This document shows, one piece after another, positions 1,936 through 55,191 of a stretch of DNA of 64,000 nt (the stretch's first letter is position 1; each line of letters starts with the position of its first letter). This DNA is from Neonectria sp. B-13 (taxonomy: Eukaryota; Ascomycota; Sordariomycetes; Hypocreales; Nectriaceae): contig NOKP01000003.1 of NCBI GenBank assembly GCA_002682825.1, positions 744,001 through 808,000 on the forward strand. Direction: 5' to 3'. The translations under genes were made by a program, and so were the position numbers. Under the pieces are notes generated by a model, which was not told the origin of the DNA, did no database searches, and worked only from the letters and a program-made list of their open reading frames with translations.

Positions 1936-3270
1936 ATGGCTATTCTCAAACACCTTGTTGCCTTTGGCCTTTTTCTTGGCGCAGGTGCCTTTCGCATCTT
2001 CGAAGTCGCTGATCTTGACAACTACGATGTTGGGGACGCATGCGTCAGCGCCTTGTCGGCTGATATCGCCTGCAATCCGTATATACGCTCCTTCATGGAG
2101 TTGAGCTATCGAGGCTCACTTGAAAACGTTACTCTGACCGACGAGATCTGCGTGGGCACCTGCTCTGGGTCGCTTCGCAAGTGGTTCGAAGCGGTTTCCA
2201 AGGACTGCGCTGGCAAAAGCTTCGGGTCCAGTGGCCGCTCTATTCCCACGAAGTACGGCGGCAACATCTGGGCCGGCTGGAATGAGACGTGTGTCAAAGA
2301 TCCTAAGACGAAGAGATATTGCAACGGTAAGTTATCGAAGGTTACAAAAGGGGAACGACGCTGACCACGATTACCAGACATCATTGATGAGTTCTCTGAC
2401 GTCGAGGAGGGCGAGGATTTTCCTCGCGCGGAGCTCTGCCACATCTGCTATCTTCGGCGCCTTGCCATGATGCAGTCCTCGCAGTACTCCCTCTACGATG
2501 AGTACTACAAGCAGGAGCTGGAGCTTGTTTACAAGACGTGCGGAGGCTCAGGGCCCACCGACATTCTACCACCTCTCAAAGAAGTAGAGGTAGAGACCCC
2601 CTTCTGCCTAACCAACAAGTACTACACGACCAAGGAGGGAGACACCTGCGACTCAATTTCCAAGGCCTCAGGCGTCTCTGGCGCTTTACTATACATGGGT
2701 AACCAAAACGCCATTGGCGACTGTCGCAAAGTCCCCGCAGGCCTCAAGCTCTGCCTCCCCATGACGTGCAAGACGTACTACGTGAAGCCTGACGAAACTT
2801 GCTTCAGCATAGAGACTTCGCAAGGCCTTCACTGGGACGATGTACAGTTCTACAACTCGTGGATCAACCGCGCCTGCACCGACCTCCAGACGGCCACCGA
2901 CTTCTACGGCAAGTCCATCTGCATCTCCGCTCTGGGCGACACAAGCTCTGTTTCAGAGGTCTCGAGCATTCAACGCAAGATCAGCAGCGGAAACGGGCCC
3001 ACCTTCGTGCGCCTTGCGCCGCCGGAAGACGCCGAGGTGGCTGAGGGCACGACGCTAAACTGTGGCCAGTGGCACATCGTCACCAAGTCGGACACTTGCA
3101 ATGACATTTGCAAGGCGAATGACATCTGCAAGGGCAACCTCATGTACGACATCAACCCTTCGTTGATGGGCAGGGATAAGTGCACTGCGAGCCTGATTCC
3201 CGGCGTGGCCTTGTGCGTGGCGCCCATTTCTGGATGGAACGTCACGTACGAATCCACCGGAGATGTTTAG
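1936..3270 (+). CDS. Secreted three-LysM protein (chitin-binding effector type)
   Basis: Exons 1936..2326 and 2378..3270 (intron 2327..2377, 51 bp, GTAAGT...CCAG) give 427 residues. The ATG at 1936 opens a hydrophobic signal peptide (MAILKHLVAFGLFLGAGA). Residues 20-200 form a Cys-containing region without LysM (ACVSALSADIACNP, CVGTCSGSL). Three LysM-like modules follow: YYTTKEGDTCDSISKASGVS, YYVKPDETCFSIETSQGL and WHIVTKSDTCNDICKAND. Each carries the GDTC/DETC/SDTC core. LysM domains bind chitin oligomers. Secreted fungal LysM proteins are known to mask wall chitin, protect hyphae or help regulate the linked chitinase. Which role applies cannot be read from sequence. Its upstream neighbour is the divergent subgroup C chitinase and its downstream neighbour a second LysM gene, which supports a chitin-handling locus. 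Confidence 0.9.
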
Positions 3271-4623: not shown

Positions 4624-6141
4624 ATGCGCTTCCCCCCTCTTCAAGGCATATTGGCCGTCGGTGTAACTGCATCCAGGGGCTTAAGGCTCCGTGCACAGAA
4701 CGGCCCAACCGACCCAGGAATCCCTTCTGATTGCACTTGGTGGGACACAGCCGTTGACGAGAGCTTCAACTGTGGCTTCTTTGAGTCAGATTGGGACATC
4801 ACACACAAACAGTTTGTGGAATACGTAAGTAGCCAACGTGCCATCCTCAGCGTGCCTGAAGGTGTTACTAACATGGTATAGAATCCCAGCGTCAAGGATG
4901 ACTGCAGCGGCATCCAGGTTGGCCATAGATACTGTATCGAGGTCAATCACGGGTTTCCTCGTGATGAAGATCTGCCCAAGGTGACGACCACTGAAGATGC
5001 CGAGCCTGAGCCCACCGAGGACTCGAAGCCCAGTCCCACGCAAGACGGTCTTATCGACACATGCACGTCCTTCTACAAGGCCAAGAAGGGAGATACGTGC
5101 ACCAAGATCATTTTACAGTATAAGACGTTCGACTTTGATGACTTCTCCAAGTGGAACCCTGCCGTCGAGAAGGATTGCAGTGGCATTTGGGCCGACACGT
5201 ACTACTGTGTAGGCGTCCCCGGAACGCCCACGAGCCCGCCCACGCAGAAGGCTGCGACTACAAAGGCCGCGGCAACAGGTGCGGCAAAGCCCAGCCCCAC
5301 CCAGGACGGCCTCATTGCGAGCTGCAAATCTTTCTACTTTGCCGCCAAGGGTGACACGTGCGACAAGATCGTGGCCAAGTACGGCACGTTCGACTTCGAC
5401 ACCTTCTTCAAGTGGAACCCGGCCGTGGGCAAGGACTGCAGCGGTATCTGGGCGAGCACCTACTACTGCGTTAGTGTTCCCGGGACGCCTACCACGAAGC
5501 CGACGACGACAGGCGGCATTGAGACTCCCTCGCCGATTCAGAACGACATGGTCAAGAATTGCAACAAGTTTCATCTAGTAAAGGAGGGTGAGAAGTGCTC
5601 AACTGTCGCTAACAAGAACAATATTTCCATTCAAGACTTCCTTAAGTGGAATCCTAAGGCTGGAAGTGGATGCACAGGCTTGAACACCAATGCTTATGCT
5701 TGTGTATCTGTTGTTGGTTTTACACCAACAAAACCCAACAACGGAGTCAAGACGCCTACACCTACACAACCTAATATTGTTGACAACTGTAACAAATTCC
5801 ACCTAGTCAAATCCGGTCAGAAGTGCTCAACTGTAGCAAACAGCAATAGCATTTCAATCCCTGACTTTCTTGAATGGAACCCAGAAGCTGGGACTGGATG
5901 CACTGGTCTAAAGACTGATGCATATGCCTGTGTGTGGACAATCAACTATAAACCTACACCTATCCAGGGTAGTATGACGAAGGACTGTAAGAAGTACCAC
6001 TTTATAGCCAAGGGTCAAATTTGCGAGGATATTCAAAAGAAGTATAGCGTTACTCTCGCAAACCTGTACAAATGGAACCCAGCTATTGGCAAGGACTGCC
6101 GCAGCATGTGGGCGGAGGTCTATCTTTGCGTCGGGGTTTAA
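4624..6141 (+). CDS. Secreted six-LysM protein
   Basis: Exons 4624..4824 and 4882..6141 (intron 4825..4881, 57 bp, GTAAGT...TATAG) give 486 residues. The N-terminus is a short, weak signal peptide candidate (MRFPPLQGILAVGVTASRG). Six LysM-type modules of about 45 residues follow. Each ends in a WNPA/WNPK-type motif and a Cys pair (for example FSKWNPAVEKDCSGIW and YYCVGVPG), with Pro/Thr-rich linkers (KPSPTQDGLI). Module 1 is divergent, lacking the canonical GDTC. Modules 2, 3 and 6 form one subtype (DCSGIW or DCRSMW). Modules 4 and 5 form another (HLVKEGEKCSTVAN, CTGLNTNAYACV) and use visibly AT-richer codons than modules 2-3. This suggests internal duplication plus a separate origin of part of the array. 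It probably binds chitin or peptidoglycan-like glycans outside the cell and lies in the same locus as the chitinase and the three-LysM gene. Confidence 0.92.
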
Positions 6142-18888: not shown

Positions 18889-19171
18889 TTCATCGAGATA
18901 TATAGTCGTTTAGATATAAGGAAAAGGCTTTGGAGCGGAGAAGTGCGGATATGAGTGATTTTGTGTGATTGAGCAAATGTCTTGTTGGTTCTGGGTTACC
19001 AACGTGGCAACTCCCATCCTGCCGTAATGTGCATGCATGTGACATAAGGCAGGCCTGCTTTTGCTGTCCAATAAGAATGGGGTGATTTTGGCCCACAGTC
19101 TTTCCTCTTGTGGGCTACGTGTTGGACTCCGCTATTGAACCAGACCAAACGGCCTAATTGGAAACCTCAAC

Positions 19172-20890
19172 CAGCCGTTGTTATAGGGGGGCGAATTAAG
19201 CTATAATACAATTCAGAAAGCAGTTATTATATATAATTAATTGTATAATTATTATATTATATAGAAAGTTAAATAGAATATAAAAAGATAATTTAGAAAG
19301 TATAAATATTACAGCCCGGGTTAGGACCAGGCGGTTACAACTAGTAGAATCATTTTAGTACCTACTTTTTCCTTCCTATCACAGTGTATAACACTTATAC
19401 GTTGAATGAGCTCTATTCAACACAGTTCAATACTATGAGTATATGCACATTGAATAGGCACTATTTAATATAACTTAATACTATTTGACTATATTAGTCT
19501 TATGTATATATATATATTTATTTAGTATATTAGATAAGAGCCTTAAGCTCCTTAACTATTAATACTCTTACTTAATTATATAATAACTTACCTTTATATA
19601 TTACTATTATAATCTATATTACTTATTATAATATTCTAATCTACTTAATTATTAAACTATATACTTTAGATCTATCTTATACTTTTAGAATAAATCTAAC
19701 TATTATTTATAGTAATTTTAGCTTTAGTTAATATTATCTAATAGATTAAAATAATATAATAAATAATATATAATAGTTAATATAATAAGATATTATACTT
19801 AATACTATTAATCCTAATAACTTAAATATAATAAGCTTTCTTAGTAATATAGTTTATATTAATATTATACCTTAAGTCTATTTTTATAATTTATCTAAGT
19901 TCTTCTCTTTAATCTTAATATCTAATTTATAAAAAGCTTATCTTAAACTATAGTATATATAAATAACTTAATTATTTCTTATTAAGCTAATAAGTTAGAT
20001 TAGTCTTTTTCTTTCTTTTTTAATATATTATAATATAGTATAATATAACTATAATATATACTACTTTTCTAATTATCTATTATATCTTATAATTAAATAG
20101 TAAAATATAAAGTTATAAAATATATAAAATAGAATACTATTATTCTTTAGATAGAAAGATAAAAACTATTAAGTATAAGTAATACTTTTACTAAGTTAAA
20201 CTTTATAGTCTTAATAGCTTTAAGTTTAACTATATAATAATTAATACTATCTAAAAGGTATATCTAGCTATATTTAGCTATTACTTACTTCTTAATAATA
20301 AAACTATTAAGATTAATAATATTAGCTTTATTATAAAAGAGAAAATACTACTTAAAGCCCTTACTAAGCAATTAAAAGCTAGGTTAGATAATAAAGATAA
20401 TAAAGTTATTATCAAAGAATTATCTAGAGACAAATATACCCTTTAGTTCTAAGAGCTACTAGAATGCATAGAACTAGTATAGATAGCCAGCTAGTCCATC
20501 TAGAAATCAAGGGAAACAAGGATCAACAAGGGTAGGATTATGTACTAGGAATAGGGTTAAGGAAAAACTTAGACTGGATGGAAAAGGTAGATAGGTTTAG
20601 GTTAGATGCAAAGGTTAATAAAGAACTTTAAAACCAACCAGGCTTAAGACAAAGAAATCAATGCATAATACAGTAATCATTATACATTAGGTTCCCTTAT
20701 AGAGGGGACCTGACTGTTATATATAACTTTAGGCTTAAGTATTAAGCCTATTATATTATTGTTTTTTCTATTTTCTTTTATACTATTTAACCTTTAGCTC
20801 CTTCTCTAGGTATATACTACTAAGGACTATTATATCTAAATATTACCTTATGCATTAGTATAATAGTATTTCTATAGAATTTTCTCTCTG
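19172..20890. repeat. AT-rich RIP-like repeat, copy 1 (shared core 19704-20706)
   Basis: A block of extreme AT richness (long TTAATATTA, TATATA runs) with stops in all frames. The core 19704..20706 is closely similar, in the same orientation, to 33484..34480. Differences between the copies are largely C/T and G/A, the pattern expected of repeat-induced point mutation. Near 20300-20480 a faint coding trace (RLDNKDNKVIIKELSRDKY) is interrupted by TAG/TAA where the other copy has TGG. A GC-richer word (CAGCCGTTGTTATAGGGGGG, 19172-19191) also occurs at 34529-34548. It is probably a dead transposable element of unknown class; I could not identify terminal repeats or a target duplication. Confidence 0.85.
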
Positions 20891-20904
20891 TTTTCACTGC
20901 CCGC

Positions 20905-23238: not shown

Positions 23239-24090
23239 TTATATTCTCGGATGATACAACTCGGCGAATGGATCAGAGCTGGAATCAGTTACCCGGGTAT
23301 ACTCCATCCTGTCAGCAATAGTCTTTGCAACACTAGACCCATATACAGCCTCTATCCACGCAAAGATAACGTCAATTCCGGCACTGATACCAGAAGATGT
23401 CCAGATATTGCCATCGTGTACCCAACGCGCTTGATGTATCCATTTCACCTCGGGACGCAGCGCTACCGTTGAGTCCCACGACCGCTTGTTTGTCGTTGCC
23501 TGTTTTCCATCCAGGACCCCAGCACGTGCCGCGACGGCGGAGCCCGTGCAGACCGTGATTAGGTACTGAAGCGAGGGATATGTCTCCCTGATATACTCAA
23601 TGGCACTGCTTATGCCCGGTGCTCGCGTTCCCTGCCCGCCCGGAACCAGAAGCAAATCGAGCGGAGGGGCTATGTTAAACGTATGTGTTGGCACAATGCG
23701 TTGCCCAAAGTCAGACCCCATAGGGTTCTTATGACCAAGTAGCTTCGTTGATACAGGCTCCATAGTCTCGGAAATGATATACAGGTTCATCTTATACGAC
23801 TTTGAGAGTAAATTAAGCGCATCCAGTGGACCAAATACATCGAGTGCTTGGAAGCCTGGAAACACAATAACGCCAAAGTTGAGAGGTTTATCTTAAATTT
23901 GGTCAGAAAACAGCCCATATTATATATACTTAAGAGAGTGATTAAAGTTATAATAGCCAGCCTACTCACCGGTTTGAGATATCAGCGGATGTTGCTGATA
24001 ACTTAACCTCCTGTGGCAAGATGATTGAGGCAACACTGCTGCCGTAGGTCTTTTGGGAAATAATACATTGGCGAGATTACAACGCATCAT
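23239..24090 (-). CDS. DJ-1/PfpI family protein, isonitrile-hydratase-like
   Basis: Exons 24090..23970 and 23891..23239 (intron 23892..23969, 78 bp, GTGAGT donor, CTGAC branch) give 257 residues. The class I glutamine amidotransferase-like fold is shown by FGVIVFPGFQALDVFGP (Asp58), LLLVPGGQGTR, the nucleophile elbow TVCTGSAVAARAG (Cys155) and SSGISAGID. The Asp near the N-terminus, the Cys-Thr-Gly elbow and the GISAGID motif match bacterial isonitrile (isocyanide) hydratases and their many fungal relatives. The first 40 residues are an unconserved extension; the start at 24090 is the first ATG in frame. Isonitrile hydratases convert R-NC to R-NH-CHO. The assignment here rests on family motifs and on the two isocyanide synthase genes next door. 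Fungal DJ-1/PfpI proteins are diverse, so the activity is inferred. Confidence 0.85.
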
Positions 24091-24496
24091 CTTATTGGTT
24101 TGCCGCGACGCTGGGAGGTAATAAGGGACAAGGCCAAGATTGCAGTTTGCTATTGTGTAGGTATCTGTAGATTCAAGAAGCAAAGAGGGGAAAGGTTGAT
24201 TGATCAGCACCTTTTTAAGCAGATCTCGGTCTCGGCCGCAACACGTGAGGAGCACCCTTGTTAGACGGAAGGGTCCGGTTCCGTCGGATGACTGAGGAAG
24301 CAGGGGTCTCAGAGACTGTAGATTAGGGAAATCCCTCGCCGGTCAATCCATTAGTCATAACGACGTTATTAAGGTCGTAATTATCATCAATTCAATCAGC
24401 CTAAATTAGCATCATTTGATCATACATTTCCCGGTGCCAGAGGCACCCAACTTAGACCGTTAGATCCCACTTACGCAGTCACGAGATCTAACAACC

Positions 24497-24586
24497 TGTC
24501 AGATTGCAGTATATGGACTTAGATACGCAAGCAGGTACCAATTATAGTGGTGCACTATATTTTTAGCCTGATAGTGTAATCTGACA
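24497..24586. mobile_element. 90-bp inverted-repeat element (MITE-like), copy A
   Basis: It starts TGTCAGATTGC and ends GTAATCTGACA, giving terminal inverted repeats TGTCAGATT/AATCTGACA. It is about 85% identical over its whole length to copy B at 24715..24804, including the central AGATACGCAAGCAGGTACC. No coding capacity and no clear target duplication. It lies between the DJ-1/PfpI gene and the first isocyanide synthase gene. Confidence 0.8.
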
Positions 24587-24714
24587 ATTAAGAGTCTCGG
24601 AGGTGGAGAAAACTCTGTTGCCTGTAACTACCGTTAGAAAGAGCAGCTAATAATCTCCCAATGACCTAATAAACCAGCGTAAAGCCTCTGGAAGCCGTTC
24701 ACGCTGGGGGTGTG

Positions 24715-24804
24715 TGTTAGATTGCGGTATATAGACTTAGATACGCAAGCAGGTACCAATTATAGTGGTGTACTATGTTTTTGGCCTGACAGTATAATCT
24801 AACA
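24715..24804. mobile_element. 90-bp inverted-repeat element (MITE-like), copy B
   Basis: Same length and orientation as copy A. Its ends read TGTTAGATT and AATCTAACA. Both ends therefore differ from copy A by the mirrored change C-to-T and G-to-A in a CpA/TpG context, so the terminal inverted repeat is preserved. It lies 128 bp from copy A. Confidence 0.8.
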
Positions 24805-25235
24805 CAACCCTCACCGGCGTGGGCTTGCTTGCCCTACTATGTCTATGCAGGACTTGATGGTGTAGGTGTGTTAGAGTGCACCCTTACCAGAAGGCTCCAG
24901 ACCTCTCGATTCAGTCCAGTCCAGTCCATCCAAATCCACTCTAATGCTAATCCAGTCCAACGCGATGACTGATCTTCAGTTGATACTTTCCCCGGTGTTG
25001 CTACGGCTGGTATTCTAGAACACGAAAGATGAAGCAGATAAATCCTTTCCATGCGGATACATATGTCTTTAAGATTAATACAACCCGGAATTCATGTGCC
25101 CAGAATGATGAAACAAAAACCACTTTCAGCGAAAGTGGGAGAGACAATAGGGATGTAGGTTAAGAGCACCGTTGAGTAAAGATGAGCTAGCTATTGAAAT
25201 ATGGACCCCTTGAATGAACTGCATGTACGGCATCC

Positions 25236-26705
25236 TCAATCAAACCCTTCCAGGATGAGTCTACCCTGCACTATGGCAAGAGAAGCCAACTTCACTTTAT
25301 CCGCATCGGACAAAGGTTTTTTAACCTGTTTAAGCCCAGCAGCGTTACGCACCACTAGTCCACCTCCGTAAAGATGCTCAAACTCCACTTCCGTATCCCA
25401 CTCCCACAGCCTAGAACGCTCGCGGAAGAAGTATGGATGACCACATCTATGGACTAGTTCATGTGACTTATTCAAAGCAGCAACGTGCAATGTTTTGAAG
25501 TTCCCATAGATGTCGACGGCTACCGCACAATGCCACGGAGTCATGGAGAAGGTATCCGGCTGGGGAATCAAGGGCATTGATATCTTGGTCAGTCCAGTCG
25601 AGGGGTGGATAGAAAGTCGCACATGCTCGGGGTATTTCTCGCGAATCACTTCCGCGAATGCCTTGAGAAGTAGGAATCATGATTAGTATTCTCTGGGTTC
25701 GCAAGGTTGATATAATTGTATGCTTACAACACCTCGGGCGATCATGGCCTTTGCCGTCTCGTGGACCTTGGCTTTGAACTTCTTTCCACTCGAAACTGAT
25801 TCTCTAACCACACCGAATGCCAAGTCTTTCTTCAAAAACTTGGCGTAGCCGTCGTATGTCATTTTGTAGTCGGGATCGTTCCTGATGCAGGCCGTTGCGT
25901 CAAAATTGGGGTCGGAATAACGGCTCATCAGTTCGTTCCGACTAGGTTCCAATAAACCGATGAACCTTTCCCTGCTTATCTCAGGGTCTGAGTACAGCCC
26001 AAGAAGGTTCATAATGCGCACAAAGTGGATGCATCGATAGCCTTTGTCAGATACCATCTGGCGCAGGATTACTCCGTATTCAAATAGATCATTGTCGGTG
26101 ACTCCAGTGAGGTCTTAAAGCAAGTCTCAGTAATGAAAGTTATTATACTTCGTGAGGCCCATCATACCATTATAGCATGAACCATCAGTTGCAATAAGAA
26201 CCATGGCACCAGGTGTGTAAACCTTCTGGATTCCTGAGCAGAGATCGTTGAGACGATCCAAGGCTAGTTCTTCACCCAAGTCAGGCCTCGTTCCTAAAAC
26301 CTTTTCGACACGATTGATGCTCTTTGCCGGGAAAGCCGGGAGAACCATCGGAATCTTGCGTCCTGCGGCGACATGGCGCCTGACCCTGGGTGAAAATACT
26401 TCTCTGCCAAGGAATATGTTGTTGCCCTGCTGCTGGAGGCTGAAACTTTCGAGCACGTCCATAATCGATGTTACAGTAGTGTCAATTCCCGGGCTCTGCC
26501 CGTCTTTTACCCCGGGCTTTTTGCTTGGTTTTGGTTCTTCCGTTCCTTTGCCGTGCTCATCGTGGAGGCCTCGGAGATTGACGGCTGGCTGCTTGCTGTG
26601 AGGTTGCTCTGCAATGAACCAGGAAAGCATGTCCCGTCCCTGTGACCTGGTATAGATCTGAGCGGATGGGGATGTTGAAATCTGTGGAAACTTCAGGGCA
26701 GACAT
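25236..26705 (-). CDS. Isocyanide synthase homologue (DIT1/PvcA family), ICS1
   Basis: Exons 26705..26168, 26113..25728 and 25661..25236 (introns 54 and 66 bp) give 449 residues. Residues 1-110 are a variable, partly charged extension (EEPKPSKKPG). The DIT1_PvcA domain then shows PMVLPAFPAKS, KVLGTRPDLGEELALDRLN, IATDGSCYND, RLSIHPSTGLTKISMPLIPQ and MTPWH. These are the conserved blocks of the family that builds an isonitrile (PvcA, XanB) or N-formyl group (yeast Dit1) on an aromatic amino acid, using a ribulose-5-phosphate-derived carbon. The protein ends directly after this domain; the TauD/TfdA dioxygenase domain fused to many fungal isocyanide synthases is absent. The next gene upstream is a second homologue in the same orientation with introns at matching positions. 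The product cannot be predicted. Confidence 0.9.
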
Positions 26706-27441
26706 TTTGGTGGTTTCTTGATGGCTTTGGGTTGCTGAAATAGTCTGAGCGTGTAGATGGGAACGGCTTGTTATGATGAAAGGTCTACAGAGGACAAGAG
26801 TTGAGGCTTATATATCAAGAACTGACTGGAAAGAAAATCGGCTTGCCAGGACGCCAATAATGCATGAGGTCTACAGTTGAGCAGCCCCGAGTCATGCAAG
26901 ACTATGCCTGAAATAACTTGATCAACTCTATTCGGTGGACTTCCGGCCTTGGGGAGTAAGGATTCCGAGGTATCTTTGACATTGTGAATTTGGTATCCTG
27001 GTAAGACCAGGGTGTTAGACATGGGTGCACATCACCGACTCCATCAACATAGCCCTGATGCCAAACAGACCAGCTCATCGACATAGACTACTACGCAGTA
27101 CGTGTATCACGTCGGTATAGAGCAACGGACTAAAAAGGAAGGTAAGTAAGAGGTGGCGAAGGTGGAAGATGGATGGGTAGCATTCATTTGATCTATTTCT
27201 CTCCCTGGGTACCACCTACATGTGGCGGTGCAGAGGGGAAACTCTATATATGCATTTAATAACGCGATTTCATGCTGAATCCGAGCTTGGTAAGCGGGGA
27301 AATCAATAAGTGGTCAGGAGAGCGCAGTGAAAACGAGGCGACAGAGGAGGTCAGCAAAGCCGAGCACAGAGAGGTTGCAGAGATATTCTTGTTTACAGTC
27401 TCAATTTAAGGGAAACATAACTCCTCTCTAATACCAGAACA
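26706..27441. other. Intergenic region between the two isocyanide synthase genes
   Basis: 735 bp expected to carry the ICS1 promoter and ICS2 terminator. Short frames on the minus strand lack domains. A purine-rich stretch around 27120-27165 stands out slightly; otherwise nothing is seen. Confidence 0.5.
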
Positions 27442-28724
27442 TCATTCAAGCTTGAATCCGCGAACCTCAAGTTCCCTAAATCGCAAGGCGAGATTAGCCA
27501 GCTGAAGGTTTGAGTCCTCATCTAGGCGCTGTTCCCTTTCATCCGCAGATACATTGACTACAATGAGATGCCCCCCGTAGCTATGGCTAATGTGTACATA
27601 CGAGGGCCAATTAAAGTCAGGGTGCTTCTCCCGAAAGAAGTAAGGTTTTCCGTCTTTCGCGATCAGTTCATACCTCTCGGCATCACGGAATCCCTCCGAC
27701 GGCCCGGTCCGGTACAATCCATTTGCCGTGACCAAGATGCAGGAGTGCCAGGGTGTAAGGCCGAAGCCGCCGGGTTGCGGGATCAATGGAATCGAGATTT
27801 TGGACTTTCTTGTTGATCTGTGAATGGAAAGTCTAATGGCTTCAGGAAACTTTGCTTCCAGGGCTCCTTCGTAGGCCTGTCAAACAGTGTCATCAGCTAA
27901 TACAGTAGAAACGTGAACCCTTGTCCTACTTACCAGCAATCTTTCGGTCATGCGCTCCGCTACTCTTTGTGCCTCCGCTTCATATTTCTCGGGGTCCGTC
28001 TTGATTGTAGGGTCGACTTCCGGCCCCCATCGAAGGTCCTCCTTAGCCGACTTGACATACTTCTGATACGTCAACGCAGTATCCGGGTGCAACTCAATCT
28101 GACGCTTGAGATCAAAGTTTGAGTCAAGGAACCGTGCCTCCATCTCGCGTCGGCAACTGTCAGCCGTTGCTAGATAGTCTGCTTTGGACAGGGCATCCCC
28201 GTCGCCAAGCCCGAGCACGTCCAAGAGACGGGCAAACGTAATGTGCGAAAAGCCTTTCTCCTTGGCCATCTGGCGCAGCTGAACCCCGTAGTCGTAGAAG
28301 GTTGCATCGGGAATGCCGAGGAGATCTGTGTTTTCGGCCATCAGAATTGATCATACCATACCCGTCCTCTATCTAGTGAGTCCTTACCATTGTATACAGG
28401 GCCATCCGCGACCATGGTCAGCTGTGCGCCGTAGGGGTGGACCTTGGCCAGCTCCTCGCAAAGATGGTTCAGCCTAGCCAGGCCTAACTCCTCACCAAAG
28501 TCAGGATTTTCACTTAGGACCTTGTCTGTGTTCGGGTTCTTCCAAGGAAATGCTGGTAGGAGCAACAACAGCGGCTTTTCAGCGGCGAGGAATTTTCGAA
28601 TTTTCGTAGCAACAAGGGGCTCGTATGCTGGCGGGTGATCAGATCCAGGCTGGTCTCCATACCGGGAGAAACGCCGCAGAATAGAGAGTATCTCCTGAAT
28701 TTCTGACTCTGATAGAACGGGCAT
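27442..28724 (-). CDS. Isocyanide synthase homologue (DIT1/PvcA family), ICS2
   Basis: Exons 28724..28388, 28325..27934 and 27876..27442 (introns 62 and 57 bp) give 387 residues. It starts [16 protein letters not shown] with only about 50 residues before the core. Family blocks are [83 protein letters not shown] and LTPWHS. As in ICS1 there is no C-terminal dioxygenase domain. Both introns lie at the same codons and phases as in ICS1: one inside the Asp codon of the YND motif (phase 1), one just before A[FY]. The two genes are therefore ancient tandem duplicates, though overall similarity looks moderate and the N-termini differ. They may act on different amino acids or make two isonitriles of one product. 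The open frame continues upstream of the chosen ATG, but without another ATG in good context. Confidence 0.9.
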
Positions 28725-29282
28725 TTTTGTTAAAGTGGGGGGGTAGTGTTTGGCCAGTGTGTAAAGGAGATGATGAAGAGAAGTTCGGAAGACGCCGAAC
28801 ATTCGGTGGATTTTATGGCTTTTGACTCTACGGCTGAACTTCCCGAATATTCCTACCCTTACTAGGCTCAAAAAAAGGGTGGAAGCACCACTGGTGTACT
28901 GTGGACTGAAATTTCCAAAAGGCCGTCCTGGAAGGCTAGACAGACTGGCAAAGGGCCACTGAGTGTGCCGGCCTGGCAGGATCACCGGATAGGAAAGATC
29001 AGCAATTGGCTGTATTGTGTCACCATCTGCAAGGTGGTATCAGCTGGACATAACCCCTCTTCGAGGGCCATGGCCCACGGCGGATGCTACACGCTTCAAG
29101 GATGAACACTTTAAACGATGGAGGTCTCAGAATCCTTGGATAGACAAAGCGAGAAGTAGCTAGGTACAGGCGAGGAAGTTGAGCCTGTCGACCTTACGAA
29201 GAGACTCGACTCTATTGTGGAAGGATTCATACTCGACAGCTGCTAACGCCTCACAATACGCAGCCAAGATGCCTAATTAGAT
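28725..29282. other. Intergenic region between ICS2 and the amidase
   Basis: 560 bp containing the presumptive ICS2 promoter and the amidase 3' end. No gene or clear motif recognised. Confidence 0.5.
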
Positions 29283-31367
29283 TCACAGTAAGATCTCTCC
29301 ACCGCTTACGCTGCTCGCCCCGGTAGCCGATGTTTTGAGAAGGCCCTTCTTGGTCAATTCGACCACAAGCCCCAAGAGCATTGAGTCACAACCCCTGGCG
29401 ACTAAGAGATTAACTGTTATGGGTAGTTGCTCTGTATGATTGGTTACGGAAGAGTGGTATGGTACTTCTCCGACTGGATTGCCGTATCGTTAGCTGCTTA
29501 AACATAACAAGGTAAAAAGAGCCAAGGGAAAGGAAGAGCTATTGTGAGGCATTGCTTACTCGGAACCACAAGGTCGGGGGTCTCTCCCATCACGCTCCAA
29601 TACGAGTTTGCAAAGCCGAATGGCATGGCCGGCGGGCTCCGGTAGGAATTCCTGTACTGAGTCATTGGCGGCGTAATGTATGCTAGGATCGAAGAGGAGC
29701 ATGTTTCCGGGTCTGATCTCAGAACTTGGCCATGAAGCCAGTTCTTGAAGATGGTCTTATTTCTCAGGCCTTCAGCCAACGCATGCTGCGGGAGACCATC
29801 TCCGTAAGCCCAACGGGCCAACGGGACCGGATTGACGAATGGTTGCCTGCCGGCATGCAATCGTGCATAATGGGCATAGAAAGGGTCTCGTACAAGCTTG
29901 GCCTGCCGTTGGCTGATCAATGTCGCATAGGTCGTGTTCAGCATACTTGCAGGGTTCTCCGGCGTTTGCGGAGGCCGAGAGCTTTGCCAGAACCCCGTCA
30001 TATTGAACGACGTAATGGATCTGAGGCCGAGGAAACTCTTCAATTCACCAAGAAAGTGCTCCACTGCGGTACTGGATTCTGGACTTAGCCCTTGAGGAAT
30101 CCCGTCAACGAACAAGTGCCGGGGGTATCGAGCTGACAGATCTCCGACTGAGCCGTACAAGACATCAGATGCGTCCCGCAGAAGCAAGGCACTTCTCGCA
30201 ATAAGTCCGGCGGTATCGAACTCCGGAGCCAGGGGCAAGACATGATCAAGAGGCACAGACCCATGCGATGGCCGCAGACCATACAGACCGTGGACGCGAG
30301 CGGGACCGCGGATACTCCCCCCTGTATCCGAACCAAGCGCAAGGTCCAACCACGAATAGGACGCAACAGCCGCTCCACCACCTGCGGAAGAGAAGCTAGG
30401 ATCCTGGTATCCGTCTCCGCGCGGGTTAAAGGGCGAGTGGTAGTCGACCCAGTCCGACGTCGCATACTCTCCGTTGGCGAACTGGGCCGTCTTCTGCTTC
30501 CCCACTACGACTGCACCCGCGTCGATGAGCCTCCGAACAGCGGTTGCTGTCACATTGGCACATGGATAGACGTTGTACCAGGCTCGGTTACCGTTGCCAG
30601 TCTTGACGCCGGCGACGTCGTATATGTCCTTGACCCCAAGGCGTACGCCGGCCAGTGGCTTGTCGGGTGTCCTTTCGTAGTAGAGCCTGGAAGGCACGGC
30701 TATGGCGAGACTCTGGCCGGCGACGTTTGCGGGGAGGACGGAGTGGTTCCCGTCTGGTTGAGCATACAGGGACTCGGTGAAAGTTTGTTGGAAGTCGGGG
30801 AAGAGCCGATATGCACGGTGGAGGTTGCCCTGAAACGAGAGAAAGTAAGGGCCCTCGGGAACTTTGTCTTCCGTGCTGTTGATACGTTGATGGAAAATGG
30901 TCCGAATTCCCCAACCATGGACGGAAATATCTGGAATCTGCTCTTCGTTGCCAACGGTGGTGTTCTGTATGTAGACGACTAATAACTGTTAGGTAACGCG
31001 CAAGAAGAGACTGCGGGCAAGTGTAGAGGTCTCAATTACAATATGAAAAGTCCTCAGTCCAAACATCATCTGAAGACTGGTACCGAGAAAACTGCCGTTC
31101 AAGTGCTTCCGTCGTATCGGTTTCGGCTGCCAGATGGACCACACTGATTGGCACGTAGCCGCCCGAGGATGCGGAGTCATCAGACATGCTTGCGATGACG
31201 ACTTTCCGAGGGAGCTTCTTGACGGGCTCGGGGGGGATCCAGAATGAGACATTTCCTAGTTGGATGGTGGCACCGGTGAATAGGCGCAAGGAAGCAGCAG
31301 CAGCAGCAGCAGCAACAGGGCTACTGGCTGCGAAGATTGTGCTCAGAATCAAGTACCGTAGGAACAT
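29283..31367 (-). CDS. Secreted amidase (amidase-signature family)
   Basis: Exons 31367..31040, 30978..29560 and 29473..29283 (introns 61 and 86 bp) give 645 residues. The signal peptide ([19 protein letters not shown]) runs into a seven-Ala stretch encoded by a GCA/GCT-type microsatellite. The catalytic Ser-cisSer-Lys triad is visible: Lys226 in [10 protein letters not shown], cis-Ser306/307 in FSSAGGGAA and the nucleophile Ser331 in [11 protein letters not shown]. The last exon restores the usual amidase C-terminus ([35 protein letters not shown]). Such enzymes hydrolyse carboxylic amides. Many fungal members of this length are secreted and lack a known substrate. It lies directly upstream of ICS2 in the same orientation and is divergent from the MFS gene. 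Within the proposed cluster it could cleave an amide, or the formamide produced from an isonitrile; this is inference. Confidence 0.88.
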
Positions 31368-31484
31368 GGCTGAGAATTTCAAGGATATGAGTTGCTCGGA
31401 GAAGAGTCTCTGTCTGCAGTGGAACCTCGCCCGCATCTTTCGCCATCAGCGTTGGTGGAGCAAATGTATTACTATATAGTTTCA

Positions 31485-31627
31485 ATAAATTGAGAAGGTC
31501 TAGCGCAACGTCAGGCTACCTTGTACCTGAGCCGATTGGATGGAAGTTCGATCGGACTCATAGTTAAGTCTGGTCAAGTTGCCAAGACCGTAGTTAATTA
31601 ATCCGGCGCTAGACCTTCTCAATTTAT
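31485..31627. mobile_element. 143-bp inverted-repeat element (MITE-like) in the amidase-MFS divergent promoter
   Basis: Perfect 22-bp terminal inverted repeats at 31485-31506 and 31606-31627 (ATAAATTGAGAAGG... against ...CCTTCTCAATTTAT) enclose 99 bp of non-coding sequence. It is non-autonomous. It lies in the 553-bp region between the amidase start (31367) and the transporter start (31921), where it may influence both promoters. The rest of the region shows nothing distinct apart from a CT-rich patch near 31800. Confidence 0.85.
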
Positions 31628-31920
31628 CAAGACTTTACGGTACTACCTAGTTTGTAAGCCGATAACCGCCAAGTCGGAGCCGTGTAACACCGGAACTTAA
31701 TATCAGGCGACATCCGCGTAAGCTTAGCCGTCGATGCCGAATACGGTCTGTGATAGGGATGGTGAATCTCGTCATCCCCAGGACCGGACGACTTCACAGA
31801 GTCTTTCTCTCTTATAGCCTCCTGAGTAGCTCATCATCCCAAGCGTTCTAGTAGAGTGGTAGTAGTTTGACCATTTCGCTCACTTCTTGTAAAGAGTTTA
31901 CGGAAACTTCAATTATCACA

Positions 31921-33320
31921 ATGCGCGAGGCCACCGTGAGCCAAGCAACCGCTCCTGTCGAATCGTTAGAACATCACAGTCCTCCACAAGTCTATGACGA
32001 TGATATACCCGACGGGGGTCTCGTGGCCTGGACTCAGGTTGCCATGGGCCATTTGGTCGTCTTCAATTGCTGGGGCTACATCACGTCGTACGTCAACACC
32101 ACTACTCTCTTTCCCACATCCGGACAGACGACATGTCTAACGTTCAGCATTGAAAAGCTTCGGCTTCTTCCAACAGTACTATGTGGAGCAACTTGAACGG
32201 TCAGCTTCGGACGTGGCATGGATCGGTTCAATGCAGATGTTCCTACTGAACTTTGTCGGTATCTTCTCAGGTCGAACTGTTGACCTGGGTTACTTCCGGT
32301 ATTCTCTGCTCATCGGTTGCACACTCCAGGTTCTTGGAGTTTTTGCGACGGCATTCTCTACCAAGTATTGGCAACTGTTCGTCGCGCAAGGTGTGTGCAG
32401 CGGTCTAGGGCATGGATTCCTCTTCGCCCCCATCGTGTCCATCCTTCCCACATACTTTAAGCGGAATAGGGCATTTGCTTTCTCGCTGGCAACCTGTGGA
32501 GCTGCAACAGGGGGTATGATATTTCCCACTATTGCATATACTAGTATGTCGCGATACGGCTTCAGATGGACAGTAATTATTATGGGGTTTGTTATTACCT
32601 TTAATGCTCTTATGATCTTGACTTTTACAAAGACTCGTATCCCTATACGGAAACCACGCTCACTCTTCGACACAAGCGCCTTTGCGGAGCTATGGTATAC
32701 CCTTTTTGCGGTAGGGTCGTTCCTGTCACTTTGGGGGCTGTATTTTGCTTATTTCTATGTGAGTGTTTCGCTTGATTCCTTATTTCAATTAATAAGTGGA
32801 AGTTATCTAATACTGACTATTCAAGGTTGGCATATACGGACGCACTGTGTTGGACTTCTCCTTAACGGAATCCCTACTTGTTATTATTGTTATGAACGGC
32901 GTGGGCATCCTAGGACGAACAATTCCTTCACTGCTTGCAGATAAGTACTTTGGTATCATCAATACCTTAATACCAGCTGTAGGTATCAGTGGTATTCTCC
33001 TGCTCGCCTGGAATGGTGTCTCTTCTACTGAGGGTCTTTTTGGATGGGCTGTTATCTATGGTATTGCTGCAAATGCCACTCAGAGTCTATTCCCAGCGGC
33101 AGTGGGCGACTTGAGCACGGATCCAACTCGTGTTGGAACTAGAGTCGGCATGATTCTAGGTGTGGTTAGTATTTCAAGTTTTACTGGTCCGCCAATTGGG
33201 GGGTGGTTAGTTACTATCCACGATGGGGATTACTTGTATGCACAACTATTTGGAGGACTGTCTATGGTGGCAGCATGTCTGATTTATATATTGGTGGGAT
33301 TAAAGAGACCTAAGAGCTAA
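31921..33320 (+). CDS. MFS transporter, monocarboxylate-porter-like
   Basis: Exons 31921..32087, 32158..32758 and 32826..33320 (introns 70 and 67 bp) give 420 residues. A hydrophilic N-terminus (DDDIPDGGLVAWTQVAMGHLVVFNCWGY) is typical of the fungal MCT-like branch (MCH family). About twelve membrane segments follow, with SFGFFQQYYVEQL in loop 1, FAPIVSILPTYFKRNRAFAF, the GPPIGGWLV motif and a short C-terminus. Substrate is unknown. Members of this branch often export or import organic acids or secondary metabolites, and some lie inside biosynthetic clusters. It is transcribed away from the amidase and closes the group of genes that includes the two isocyanide synthases. Right after it the AT-rich repeat copy 2 begins. 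Confidence 0.9.
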
Positions 33321-33483
33321 GTTAAGTAAATGTTCAGTAATATATCTGTCTATTAGTCTAGCTCTGATAAGATGGGTCTTTTTACTTAAAAAGAAAACCC
33401 TGCACAGGGCTAGGAGGTAACTGCGGGCGCGAAATTAGCGGGAGAAATAATGTAAGTAGGGGCTCGAGCGATTTATATAATAG

Positions 33484-34480
33484 TATTTATAGTAATTTTA
33501 GCCTTAGTTAATATTATCTAATAGATCAAGATAATACAGTAGATAATATACAATAGTTAATATAGTAAGATACTATGCTTAATACTATTAATCCTAATAA
33601 CTTAAATATAGTAAGCTTTCCTAGTAATATAGTTTATATTAATATTATACCTTAAGCCTATTTTTATAATCTATTTAAGTTTCTCTTTCTAACCTTAATA
33701 TCTAATTTATAAAAAGCTTATCCTAAACTATAGTATATATAAATAACTTAATTATCTTTTATTAAGCTAATAAGTCTAATTAGTCTTTTTTTTTCTTTCT
33801 TAATATACTATAATATAATATAATATAATTATAATATATTCTACTTTTACTATTATCTATTATATCTTATAATTTAATAGTAAGAAATAGAGCTATAAAA
33901 AAATATAAAATAGAATATTATTACTTTTTAGATAGAAAGATTAAGTCTATTAAGTATAAAAAATAGCTTTATTAAGCTAGAATCTATAGTCTTAATAGCT
34001 TTAAGTTTAATTATATAATAGTTAGTATTATTCAAATAATATATCTAGCTATATTTAGCTACTATTTATTCCTTAATAATAGAGCTACTAAGATTAATAA
34101 TATTAGCTTTATTATAGAGAAGAAGATACTACTTAAAGCTCTTATTAAGTAATTAGAGACTAGGTTAGACAATAAAGATAATAAAGTCATTATTAATGAA
34201 TTATCTAGAGATAAATATGCCCTATGGTTCTAGGAGCTGCTAGGGTGTATAGAGCTAGTGCGGATGGCCAGCTAGTCTAGCATCGTGAAATCGGGGGGAA
34301 AAGGACTAACAAGGGTGGGATCATGTGGTGTTAAGGAAAAACTTAGACTGGATGGAAAAGGTAGATGGGTTCAGGTCAGATGCAAAGGTTAATAAAGAAC
34401 TTTAAAACCAACCAGGCTCGAGACAAAGAAATTGATGTGTGACACAGTAATCATTACACATTAGGTTCCCTCATAGAGGG
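33484..34480. repeat. AT-rich RIP-like repeat, copy 2
   Basis: Same orientation and nearly the same length (997 against 1003 bp) as copy 1 at 19704..20706. It is less degraded: where copy 1 has stops, this copy keeps TGG and CGG codons near 34225-34265 (SRDKYALWF, ELVRMAS). Both end in TTAGGTTCCCTCATAGAGGG or its variant. The word CAGCCGTTGTTGTAGGGGGG follows at 34529. In copy 1 that word lies about 530 bp upstream of the core. This suggests a larger element with that word at both termini, of which each locus keeps a different part. Flanks 33321-33483 and 34553-35059 contain no recognisable gene. Confidence 0.85.
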
Positions 34481-50760: not shown

Positions 50761-53700
50761 TCATTCGCTGTCTTTCCTCTGAGCCAACTCGTGATCATCT
50801 CCCAAACAACGCCCTCCAATCGTATAGCACTCTGAACAAATGTCAAAATCCCCACCGTTGCAAACTTCACACTTGTAGAAGACCTCATTTTCCGAAATAC
50901 CCAAAGTGCAAACATCGCACCATCTGGATGCCCCGTCACTAGATATCGGGATCATCTCGATAGGTTCGTCGTTATCGCAAACTGTTATTCCTCTCTTCTC
51001 TGCGTAGCCGCGTAGTGCTTGCTCGATGTCGGTATTCTCACATCTTCTCGCCCACCACCACGAAGTCCGTCCGAAACGGTCCTGAGAGTCGAGGGTGACT
51101 TGTCCAGTAGCCAGCAGCACTTTGACCATCTCTATGCGACAATTTCGTACAGCTATTGATAGCGGTGTCGAACCATAACGATCTTCCTGATCGGGACCAG
51201 AGGAATCATGGTTAAGTAATGCGATTGCGACGGTATCATGTCCGTTCTTGGACGCAATTGATAACGGTGTCCGGCCAATACTATCTTCTGTATTCGCACT
51301 GCCCTTCGCAAGCAGCAGCTTGACGATAGCCGCATGCCCGTATCCGGAGGCCCACGATAGCGGTGTCCGACCATACATCTCATCCTTTGAGTCCACATCA
51401 ACCTTCTCTATCTCAAGTAGCAGCTTGGTGATGGCCTCATGTCCGTTCAGGGCGGCCCACGATAGCGGCGGCCGACCATACTTTTTGTCTTTTGAGTTCA
51501 CATCAACCTTCTCCGTCGCAAGCAGCAACTTGACGATAGCCGCATGCCCGTTCCGAGTGGCCCACAATAGTGGCGTCAGGCCATACGTCTCATCCTTTGA
51601 GTTCACATTAACCTTTCCTGTCTCAAGCAGCAGCTTAACGACGGCTTCGTGCCCGTTCCAAGTGGCCCACAATAGCGGCGTTAGGCCATACGTCTCGTCC
51701 TTTGAGTTCACATTAACCTTCTCTGTCTCAAGCAGTCGCTTGACGATGGTCTCATGCCAGTTTTCAGAGGCCCACGATAGCGGCGTCTGACCGGAGTTAT
51801 CCTTCAAGTCCACATCAATGCCTTCAGTAGTAAGCAGCAGCTTGACTGTGGCCGCATGCCCGTTTCTGGCGGCCCACTATAGCGGCGTCCGACCGTGCAT
51901 TTCATCCTTCAAGTTCACATCAACCTTCCCTGTCGCAAGAAGCAGCTTGACGATGGCCTCATGCCCGTTCCGAGTGGCCCACAATAGCGGCGTCTGACCA
52001 GAGTTATCCTTCGAATTCACATTAATGCCTTCGGTGGCGATCAGGAGCTTGACGGTGGCCTCGTTCCCCTTTTCGGTGGCCCACGATAGCGGCGTCTGAC
52101 CATACATCTCATCCTTCAAGTTCACATCGACGCCTTCGGTAGCGAGCAGCCGCTTAGCAACGGTCTCGTGCCCGTGTCCTTCTCCAGCCGTCCGTAGTAA
52201 CCAAGCGTCGCGTAATGTTGGCGCCCTCACAACGTCAATCTTCAACTCCTTTAACGAATTAGGATCATTTGCTATTGCGTGATCCTCCCACTCGCTGGAT
52301 GCATATTCCAAGAAGGAATACTTGCGCAAGTGAGTTTGCAGTTCTTGTATAGGTGTGTTGAGCAACACATTATTCTGGCGCCTGAAAATCAACCTGCCGT
52401 TGGAGAACACATCGCTGCTCAAGTAACGCCAGCATATCTCGAACATGTGAAGATTCGCGTCACCGGAGGACATGTGGTACCATACTCCTCTTGAACCGTG
52501 ATCGTCCAGTAGAAAATCTTTCACTGATTGGTGGCAGAAGTTGGCTGTAATCTCCCTGTCGTTGCTTGCAACGTCAAGATAGATGATGGAGCTGCATGAC
52601 AAACATATGTCCATGTAGTCATGAATATCCTGGTCACCCACCACTGACTTGGTCTTCCAAAACGCGAATGATGCCGCTAGTTCCTTTTTTGTCAGAGGTC
52701 GCCGCGCAGCAACCATGCTAAGCAGGAGAAATCGAGCGTCCTCCCGCCTCTCTTTCGGAATGTTGTCGTCTAAAATCCTAGTGTAAGTTTCGTCAAGCCC
52801 TTTGGGAAGATCCTTGAGTTTGCCCTCGACCTCATGTTTCAGTGTGTTTTCTAGCTCATTGATCATCAAAGACACCCAGAGGAAGGTGCCTCCAGCTTGG
52901 CTCTCTAGAGCCTCTATGACTTTTGCTTGCAGACTTTGGCTGTACTTTTTCCTTTGCGCTAGGTCCCCAACTCTGAGGTTAATGTACTCAGAAAGATCGG
53001 CATTGACTTCGCTCGAGTCCATCCTCAAAGGCACGCCAATTTTGTCTAGCGTAAACTCAATGTCGCTTATCTCAGGTCGGCAGGTTATGAGAAATTTGAA
53101 GTTGCCTGCCGGCGCTGCTGATGCGTGAAATAGTTCCCTAACACCATGGAGCAGAGCCTTGCGGGTGGATCTGTCGCACTCGTCCAGAGCATCAATGAGA
53201 ATGAATACTTCACCAGCACGCTCATCTCGGACCATGTCTTGAAATATCCGCCAGAGAGCGGAAAAGTTCTCAAAAAGACTCTCGAAAAGACGACTATCCT
53301 TGTGCTTCTCAAAGTCCAACTGAATGTGTTCGAAAAGCTCGCTCCTTTGCAGTAGCAGTTGCCAGATGAGGCTTCGAAGCATTGCAGTTGGCGTCCTCCG
53401 CTCCTGTTGTTTGTCGTCGCAAAAGAAGTATGCAAATGCTGTGTTAGGAGATTTTTCAACCTTTCCCTTGAGGACCTCGACGAGGAAGGTGGACATCATT
53501 GTCTTTCCGATGCCCGGGGAGCCGATGAGGCGAAGAAGTTTCGAGCTATCGGTGGCTCCCCAGGCGGAGAAGTCTTTCTGCTTCAGGATCCACTTGCAGG
53601 TTTGCCCTATTCTTTTCCCTTTTTGAGTCTGGACGTCTGATATAATGTCTCGTGGGTTCGTCACCCTCATCTCTTGGAGACATGTTCGGAGACCGCCAGA

Positions 53701-55191
53701 TGCAGCGCTTTCGTCCATTGGAATAGATTTTGGGTTCCGGCGATGCTTAAGCATGTCTTCAGCATTTCGAGCCATTCGCTCAATCTCAGGGTAGACGAGC
53801 TTAAAAGAGGGATCGTCTGGCCCGTAGAATTTGTTAATCTTGAAATGGTCTGCGTGTAAAGATATCTTATGATGGCCATCAATGCAAGCACTAGTCTCAG
53901 GTACGACCTAGAGAGCCAGTCAAAAGTGTTCAGGGAAGGGTACACAGATACATACGAGTCTCCTGAAGGGGATGACATTCCCCACGACTCCCACCCTGGA
54001 CGAATAGTCTGTCGTAAGTTGTTCAAAAAAGCAGACAACGGGCACCGACTGGTCAAAGAGCCAGCGGGTAAATTCATGTAGACGATCTGTTAAGGTACCC
54101 GATTGCTCTTCTAGGTCCTTCAAAATCCTGTCTTCGGGGGCAAACTGAGGCGGTGTGAGCCATGTAACCAGACCACCCCAGGTTGCCTCGGCGCTGCCTC
54201 GGTGAGGCGTACCCAGAAAGACCACCCCGACGGTAGAGTTGGCGATGTCGGTGTACGCAGACCCGTATCGGGAGGCGGAGACGATAGCCTACCGGAAAAT
54301 TGATATAACTGAAGGGGAAGTTGGACAGTGGACGGCTACGAACCTGTTCAATGAGGTTGCCTCCAAAACTGTGACCAATAAAGATCAACGGTCTGCCCGT
54401 GGCCTGCTAAGGTCGACGGTTACCCAACAATGCCTGGATGAAGCTAGAAATGTGACGTCGGACGTACCTTATCGCGCTCGTTCCTGAGACTGTCTAATAA
54501 GTTGTCCGAAATGTTAGAGAGCCTTTGTTGGGGGGCGTTCATGAACCACTTCGAGTCATAGTTGAAGGTCATAACGCGACAAGACAATTGTTTGGACAAC
54601 AACTCAGTGGGAAGCAATTCCCGCAACCAGTTGAAATGCTTAGCCGGATACCCGGGGTGACCCGGAGGGTTGTTTTTCGGTTGCCAAACCCAAGCATAAT
54701 CCGGGTTCGCGGCAAGCCCATGCACAGCCACGATGCTGAGATGATTGTTAGGAATTTCAAGGCCATCCGAGGGCAGAGACGTACTCAATAGTTGCACTGC
54801 TGTCTTGATACAAAACCTGTATTAGATGCTCTGCACGTGGTGGAGAGCTCTTATCGCGCGACGGGCATCGTTGTCGTCGAGAGAGTGACAAGGGAAACGC
54901 CAAGCACCGACTCTGGTCTCCGTCTCCGGACGTAACGCCTCCATCACCCGAGGGCATATTATCTCCGTCTTTGGAAGATTTGGCCTGGCCGTCAGGTATA
55001 TTCTCGCCGCGGGGGGCTGGTTGAGGTCCAGGATCGCGCAGGGGAAGGAGTCCGGAAATCCATCTCGGCCAAGTAGGCCTGCTGATAGATGCAATGAGAA
55101 GACCGCAGCAAATCAAGCACACATTCCGAACAAGACCGCGAAGCCCGACGAAAACCCCGGCGATAATCCTAGGGACTGTAAAAGAAGACAT
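50761..55191 (-). CDS. NLR-like protein: alpha/beta-hydrolase, NACHT, ankyrin repeats, ZZ zinc finger; in-frame stop in the ankyrin array
   Basis: Exons 55191..54785, 54735..54468, 54403..54344, 54288..53956 and 53907 onward (introns 49, 64, 55 and 48 bp). Residues 8-32 are a hydrophobic segment. The hydrolase domain shows IVAVHGLAANPDYAWVW and GHSFGG (Ser237). The NACHT domain shows LLRLIGSPGIGKT (P-loop, about 485-492) and VFILIDALDECD (Walker B, about 590-600). Ankyrin units of about 35 residues (TPLSWATEKGNEATVKLLI) begin near residue 930. The codon at 51879-51877 is TAG where sister repeats have TCG or TTG, so translation stops at 1032 residues. The same frame then stays open for 372 more codons, with some eight more ankyrin units and a ZZ finger (CDVC, CEVC, CSEC) to 50761. 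The repeats are highly alike, as in rapidly evolving incompatibility-type receptors. Recent nonsense mutation or a shortened allele are both possible. Confidence 0.88.

Follow-up and report, generated by a model that had tools for sequence, protein, structure and literature searches.

A candidate minimal isocyanide biosynthetic gene block with two isocyanide synthases and an adjoining hydratase-like gene in Neonectria sp. B-13

The genes of a candidate isocyanide pathway in Neonectria sp. B-13 are located within a five-gene block on contig C50 of the genome assembly (60.9 Mb, 123 contigs). The block was analyzed within positions 744001-808000 of that contig, a stretch of 64,000 nucleotides referred to here as the window. 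From left to right, it contains a hydratase-like gene of the DJ-1/PfpI family, two genes for single-domain isocyanide synthases (ICSs), designated ICS1 and ICS2, and an amidase-signature gene, all on the minus strand, followed by a plus-strand gene for a transporter of the major facilitator superfamily (MFS) (Table 1). Gene models were predicted from the DNA alone, and all five frames were uninterrupted once spliced at GT-AG introns. The introns and gene families are in keeping with a filamentous ascomycete. The gaps between the four minus-strand genes measured 558 to 1145 bp. A preliminary description of the window had placed five genes here, and their locations were upheld by Pfam matches and intact splice models, while two of the bounds were revised. 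The start of the hydratase-like gene was moved to 24090, one exon upstream of the frame at 23239-23892, and the end of the amidase gene lies at 29283 rather than 29498 owing to a third exon. The first exon of the hydratase-like gene is the least secure part of the models, its basis being one GT-AG intron and the sole in-frame start seen. An apparent frameshift near 29750 suggested that the amidase gene might be a pseudogene; this was rejected, since a tblastn search with a paralogue from the same genome (L015) indicated that the frame continues. A GT-AG intron leads to the third exon, and the encoded protein matches that paralogue.

Table 1. Genes of the block, flanking repeats and short repeat elements, in window coordinates.
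Feature	Position	Strand	Details
Hydratase-like gene (DJ-1/PfpI)	23239..24090	-	exons 24090-23970, 23891-23239; 257 aa; Pfam, splice model
ICS1, single-domain isocyanide synthase	25236..26705	-	exons 26705-26168, 26113-25728, 25661-25236; 449 aa
ICS2, single-domain isocyanide synthase	27442..28724	-	exons 28724-28388, 28325-27934, 27876-27442; 387 aa
Amidase-signature enzyme	29283..31367	-	exons 31367-31040, 30978-29560, 29473-29283; 645 aa
MFS, monocarboxylate-transporter type	31921..33320	+	exons 31921-32087, 32158-32758, 32826-33320; 420 aa
Left copy of high-copy repeat, AT-rich, RIP-like	19701..20706	+	bounds the block
Right copy of same repeat	33481..34480	+	same orientation; 85-86% identical to left copy
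90-nt element, copy 1	24497..24586	+	between hydratase-like gene and ICS1; terminal inverted repeats by eye
90-nt element, copy 2	24715..24804	+	90% identical to copy 1; 9 of 9 differences are transitions
Inverted repeat	31466..31646		41-nt arms, 83% complementary, 99 nt apart; amidase/MFS divergent promoter

Both ICS genes matched the DIT1_PvcA family (PF05141) in each of three exons, with E values of 1.2e-18 to 5.6e-30, all above the curated cut-off. The matches covered profile positions 1-272 (ICS1) and 1-271 (ICS2) of 273, which confirmed across the full domain the earlier assignment of two proteins to the DIT1/PvcA family. ICS1 and ICS2 resemble the bacterial tyrosine/tryptophan isonitrile synthases PvcA and IsnA in sequence: both are 28-29% identical to a PvcA from P. 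aeruginosa, and ICS2 matched PvcA/IsnA entries of the PDB (3e59, E 5.1e-28; 9dh4, E 3.1e-24). No TauD-type partner was found for the window pair. The NCBIfam equivalog model for the tyrosine isonitrile synthase PvcA (NF045653) has a cut-off of 600 bits. The scores obtained, 124 and 114 bits, fell far short of it, and tyrosine is therefore not claimed here as a substrate.

Across the genome, PF05141 gave 25 exon matches, which correspond to seven ICS genes at six loci when mirrored copies (see below) are counted once. Spliced alignments of the other ICS genes, guided by ICS1, placed two introns at positions common to ICS1, ICS2 and the four remaining ICS genes that are not dit-like; in ICS1, these lie near residue 180 (phase 1) and near residue 308 (phase 0). 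A maximum likelihood tree was built from 20 sequences, of which seven came from this one fungal genome and 13 were bacterial (10 of 71 loci and 3 of 11 plasmid hits). ICS1 and ICS2 were sisters in the tree, with support of 94/87, slightly below the mark for strong support. The pair belonged to a group that also contained the remaining four non-dit ICSs (98/97), and the ICS of contig C72 fell outside this group. The finer placements are unsure because three rows, including ICS2, had long branches. ICS1 and ICS2 were only 35.8% identical, and the duplication is therefore probably old.

The conservation of ICS1 and ICS2 was assessed at 42 alignment columns that were kept in at least 12 of the 13 bacterial sequences and in all four other non-dit ICSs of this fungus. 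ICS1 kept 40 of these columns and ICS2 kept 34, and the charged ones (Lys, Asp, Glu, Arg, His) were all kept in both. When the four other fungal ICSs were left out one at a time, they kept 42/42, 42/43, 42/43 and 42/44 columns (0 to 2 lost). Another set of 50 columns was defined by invariance among the 13 bacterial sequences alone; 37 of these were kept by ICS1 and likewise 37 by ICS2. The changes in ICS2 include S56N, P91Y, F190S and Y89H (numbered as in the L047 fragment). Since every conserved charged residue is kept, ICS2 looks like a divergent enzyme whose pocket has changed, and not like a dead one.

The protein encoded to the left of ICS1 matched the DJ-1_PfpI family of Pfam (E 1.1e-14). 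Its Asp58 and Cys155-Thr156 aligned with Asp17 and Cys101-Thr102 of Pseudomonas InhA in the PDB alignment (E 3e-20), in agreement with the isonitrile-hydratase motifs reported for it in the preliminary description. Cys101 is described as the nucleophile of InhA and Asp17 as its acid/base (PMC10971408). The catalytic residues are alike in the window protein and InhA (PDB 6ni5, 3non), whereas the N-terminus of the window protein is longer by about 40 residues and is basic, with 6 Arg/Lys and 1 Asp/Glu in 42 residues. As judged by eye, four of the seven paralogues (L029, L030, L031 and L035) have a Met within about 10 residues of the domain, and the start of another (L027) resembles a signal peptide. 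A mitochondrial address may be guessed from the N-terminal extension.

Eight distinct genes of the hydratase-like kind were found across the genome, and the one in this block is alone in lying near an ICS gene. With uniform gene placement assumed over 60.9 Mb, the chance of such closeness within 5 kb was 0.0021 at a single ICS locus and 0.0125 across all six, and within 10 kb it was 0.0034 and 0.0203, respectively. A genome size of 30 Mb, which allows for mirrored sequence, gave 0.0043 and 0.0253 (5 kb) and 0.0069 and 0.0408 (10 kb). The proximity of the hydratase-like gene to an ICS gene is unlikely to have arisen by chance.

The amidase matched PF01425 (E 5.2e-36 to 8.2e-36) over profile positions 35-210 of 445. 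The motifs GGS, SSAGGG and VKD were read by eye and presumably mark the region of the Ser-cisSer-Lys triad. An interim model, which had a wrong C-terminal tail, matched 48 solved sequences in the PDB at E <= 0.001, a result that names no substrate. The enzyme had been described as a secreted amidase adjoining ICS2; its presence and position held, and its secretion was read by eye from a signal-peptide-like N-terminus rather than taken from a prediction. The MFS transporter was recovered as described, with MFS_1 matches at E 4.6e-20 and 1.4e-8. Its closest NCBIfam models were those of monocarboxylate transporters, at 83.5 and 76.6 bits, far below the cut-offs of 320 and 586.1. A carrier of small carboxylates would fit an alpha-isocyano acid. 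Elsewhere in the genome (L046, C32:1348001-1358000), some 3 kb separate a paralogue of the hydratase-like gene from an MFS gene and a zinc-cluster gene on a contig with no ICS match. The MFS protein at that site is of the same broad family as the window MFS and 39% identical to it, and the site is perhaps a stand-alone isocyanide-resistance unit.

The xan cluster includes a cytochrome P450 (P450), and the preliminary description had noted that the P450 and methyltransferase partners of the xanthocillin cluster are absent from this block. Of 73 non-overlapping stop-to-stop open reading frames (ORFs) of at least 100 amino acids in the window, 63 were scanned, with complete coverage from 2365 to 49197. 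P450, methyltransferase, TauD, nonribosomal peptide synthetase-like (NRPS-like) and zinc-cluster matches were found in 0 of the 63, and the absence of the first two from the block was borne out as far as ORFs of this length reach. Genome-wide searches placed none of the 41 candidates for PF02668 (TauD), all of which were scored, and none of the best 92 of 295 candidates scored for PF00067 (P450) in the window. AMP-binding, carrier and transferase domains were not found with ICS1 and ICS2 in the scanned ORFs of the block.

The five other ICS loci were viewed over 10 kb each, and 24 of their 53 non-overlapping ORFs were scanned. On C1 and C80, the ICS is followed by a TauD exon and has FAD-oxidoreductase neighbors. 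On C44, AMP-binding-C, carrier and transferase domains come after the ICS, a crm-like order that may represent a fusion. On C53 (L044, 226501-236500), the ICS is divergent from a gene with AMP-binding, carrier and transferase domains, an arrangement that resembles the unfused crm relative described for Fusarium gene cluster family (GCF) 8 (PMC10153163). The ICS of C72 stands beside a P450 gene on the same strand and an RTA1-like gene, a dit-like content. The TauD, AMP-binding/carrier/transferase and P450 partners seen at these loci were not found beside the ICS pair of the window.

ICS clusters are already known as a class in fungi (Lim et al. 2018, PMC5974471), and they form the fifth-largest predictable class of fungal clusters (PMC10153163). 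An MFS transporter is their commonest partner, present in about 60%, and isocyanide hydratases occur in 21.1% (PMC10153163). GCF 1 of the same survey (Nickles et al. 2023, PMC10153163) has two single-domain ICSs that form two clades from one ancestral duplication; compared by description only, it resembles the window in its duplicated single-domain pair, the members of which are sisters here. The A. fumigatus ICS4G icsA/icsB cluster also has two ICS genes, one of them single-domain, but IcsB carries a dioxygenase domain, unlike the window ICSs, and the cluster was silent in all conditions tried (PMC5974471). The A. fumigatus xan cluster resembles the window in an ICS gene that adjoins the isocyanide-hydratase homologue XanA, but its XanB is an ICS-dioxygenase and it has the methyltransferase XanE and no predicted transporter (PMC5974471), whereas the window has two single-domain ICSs, an amidase and an MFS transporter. 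The crm enzyme is an ICS-NRPS-like protein that yields a valine isocyanide (Won et al. 2022, PMC9381783); it shares the ICS domain but differs in its AMP-binding, carrier and transferase domains. With valine and tyrosine, the free isocyanide can itself be the product (PMC9381783, PMC13005658). In the ORFs scanned around the window pair, we found neither the dit arrangement (an ICS with a Dit2-type P450), nor the xan arrangement (TauD domain, P450 and methyltransferase), nor the joined domains of crm. The main text of PMC10153163 does not mention an amidase, and no description of an amidase in a fungal ICS cluster was found in the literature searched, mostly open-access main texts. Within that literature, the five-gene combination had no printed match.

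Mac1-, Ace1- and bZIP-like sites were counted in the four intergenic regions of the block, with six motifs tried in all. No Mac1-like pattern was found in the four regions, in which a single Mac1-like heptamer occurred in one promoter. Ace1-like sites, defined by a degenerate consensus, numbered 7 over the four regions versus 2.71 expected from their density in the window (P = 0.02). Five of these were in the gap between the hydratase-like gene and ICS1, versus 1.04 expected (P = 0.004, uncorrected), and the other three regions had 1, 1 and 0, with no enrichment upstream of ICS1, ICS2, the amidase or the MFS gene. Because six motifs were tried in four regions with a degenerate consensus, these counts are at most a weak hint of copper control, and they give no hint that the five genes are controlled jointly. 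One 11-mer, with one mismatch allowed, was shared by the regions versus 0.07 expected (15 shuffles, maximum 1), which is too thin to interpret.

We consider a minimal isocyanide biosynthetic cluster, which would make, move and break down isocyanides, to be the best explanation of the block, at a probability of about one half. The isocyanide cluster proposed in the preliminary description retains its two ICSs, adjoining hydratase-like protein and transporter, and for copper control there is at most the weak hint above. The reactions, their substrates and the joint action of the five genes are what we infer from the gene content, as follows. ICS1 and ICS2 would each form an alpha-isocyano acid by condensing ribulose-5-phosphate with an amino acid. 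They probably use different amino acids, as ICS2 is altered at several conserved positions. Since no oxidase, P450 or NRPS-like partner was found nearby, the product would probably remain a small carboxylate of the alpha-isocyano type or something simply derived from it. The monocarboxylate-transporter-like MFS protein may move this compound or its formyl product across a membrane, and the hydratase may add water to surplus isocyanide, which would yield N-formyl compounds and serve in self-protection. For the amidase, a substrate outside the cytosol is envisaged, either an amide or an N-formyl derivative; its role is the weakest and least certain step of the scheme.

Several results weigh against this explanation. 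The best solved match of the hydratase-like protein was the ThiJ-family protein 3mgk (E 5.2e-37), which we take to be clostridial, and this match was better than that to InhA. The signature residues are common among its paralogues: all seven carry Cys-Thr, and Asp is present in each of the six that are readable at this site, and so Asp and Cys-Thr are not diagnostic of an isonitrile hydratase. ICS2 lacks 8 of the 42 conserved positions, including an aromatic Phe and Tyr, and has plainly diverged further than its relatives. No 8-mer is common to all four intergenic regions. The amidase may be an accidental neighbor because amidase-signature genes are numerous here, with 42 exon matches, mirrored copies included, to an interim query of 523 amino acids. 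The divergent MFS gene could belong to another unit.

The last two points lead to the possibility, which we regard as doubtful, that the functional unit consists of the hydratase-like gene, ICS1 and ICS2 only, and that the amidase and MFS genes are unrelated neighbors caught between the two repeat copies. Like the amidase family, the MFS family is large (89 exon matches, mirrored copies included), the promoter between the two genes differs from the other gaps in containing an inverted repeat, present as a single copy, and no promoter motif is shared by the four regions. Against this separation stand the frequency of MFS genes in fungal ICS clusters, where they are the commonest partner (PMC10153163), the close spacing of the minus-strand genes, and the fact that the entire block is bounded by the repeat. 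Instead of a separate synthase, ICS2 could be a diverged subunit or partner that acts with ICS1, either by tuning the substrate or in a heteromer. Such a role would account for its 8 changed columns, compared to 2 in ICS1, and for S56N, P91Y and F190S at sites invariant in 13 of 13 bacteria; we hold it unlikely, as ICS2 has lost no conserved column of Lys, Asp, Glu, Arg or His and equals ICS1 in the bacterial-invariant ones.

The preliminary description had itself raised a role like that of yeast Dit1, the making of N-formyl-tyrosine for spore walls, as an alternative. In a broader version of it, N-formyl amino acids produced by the ICSs would go into a polymer of the spore or cell wall, and the isocyanide would be only an intermediate converted by the hydratase. 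The ICSs belong to the same Pfam family as Dit1, and an adjoining hydratase would yield the N-formyl product directly. This alternative was weakened, because the genome has a separate dit-like locus on C72 with an ICS, a P450 and an RTA1-type gene; moreover, ICS1 and ICS2 are set apart from the C72 ICS in the tree, and no P450 was found beside the pair in the scanned window ORFs. We consider it very improbable.

A more specific form of the minimal cluster can be envisaged, though it is distinctly unlikely to be right in all its parts. The block would be a self-contained unit that makes, carries, hydrates and cleaves free alpha-isocyano acids by means of two ICSs with different substrates, a monocarboxylate-type carrier, a mitochondrial hydratase and a secreted amidase. 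The mitochondrial hydratase would shield the copper- and heme-containing respiratory enzymes, and the secreted amidase would remove the formyl group or free the isocyanide from an amide conjugate. Such a unit, if real, would be a fungal isocyanide pathway in which tailoring enzymes of the oxidative and NRPS-like kinds are lacking. Isocyanides are reactive compounds, and those of fungi bind metals and affect competing microbes. Few ICS clusters have a known product in the parts of the literature covered. A small five-gene locus in which no large tailoring enzyme was found is tractable for studying the role of a duplicated ICS pair, and it allows one to ask whether a hydratase and then an amidase act sequentially on an isocyanide.

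The two copies of the flanking repeat bear marks like those of repeat-induced point mutation (RIP). The G+C fraction was 0.23 over 19100-20900, and transitions made up 106 of the 125 mismatches between the left and right copies. The composite RIP index was negative (-0.16 to -0.56) in every coding stretch of the block and positive, at 0.29, in the amidase/MFS promoter. Near-full-length copies were found at 40 places, mirrored ones included, among the best 40 of 140 candidates scored. A mobile unit carried between direct repeats was rejected: copies elsewhere are up to 91% identical to the left copy, versus 85% for the right one, and because the left copy is closer to those, the flanking pair is no evidence of a single transposition. 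Within the block, the 90-nt element had no genomic copies found beyond the two listed and their mirror, and no other genomic copy of the inverted repeat was found, its mirror aside.

The locus is present twice on C50 (1-1824023) as a mirror image, and the coordinate sums of the two copies came to 1824024 for each of eight features tried. Mirror pairs were also seen on C72 (sums of 1984374, one more than the length of the contig), C114, C27, C38, C41, C74, C105 and C56. Mirror-image pairs with constant sums indicate that the assembly consists in large part of inverted duplicates. The sums drift between some pairs, by 9 bases on C114 and by 46 on C105, and C105 has a second, separate mirror. A real segmental duplication was set aside, as the second C50 copy mirrors the first and other contigs share the pattern; the mirrored sequence is probably an assembly artifact, and mirrored copies were counted once.

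The other scanned ORFs of the window included LysM, FG-GAP repeat, GDSL lipase, fungal rhodopsin-like, amino-acid permease, FAD enzyme, second MFS and NACHT/ankyrin matches. Two LysM-domain proteins are encoded near each other, at 2365-3267 and 4882-6138. NACHT NTPases with ankyrin repeats are typical of fungal NLR-like genes, and a NACHT/nephrocystin-type NTPase with ankyrin repeats is encoded at 50764-53907 by two ORFs split by one stop codon.

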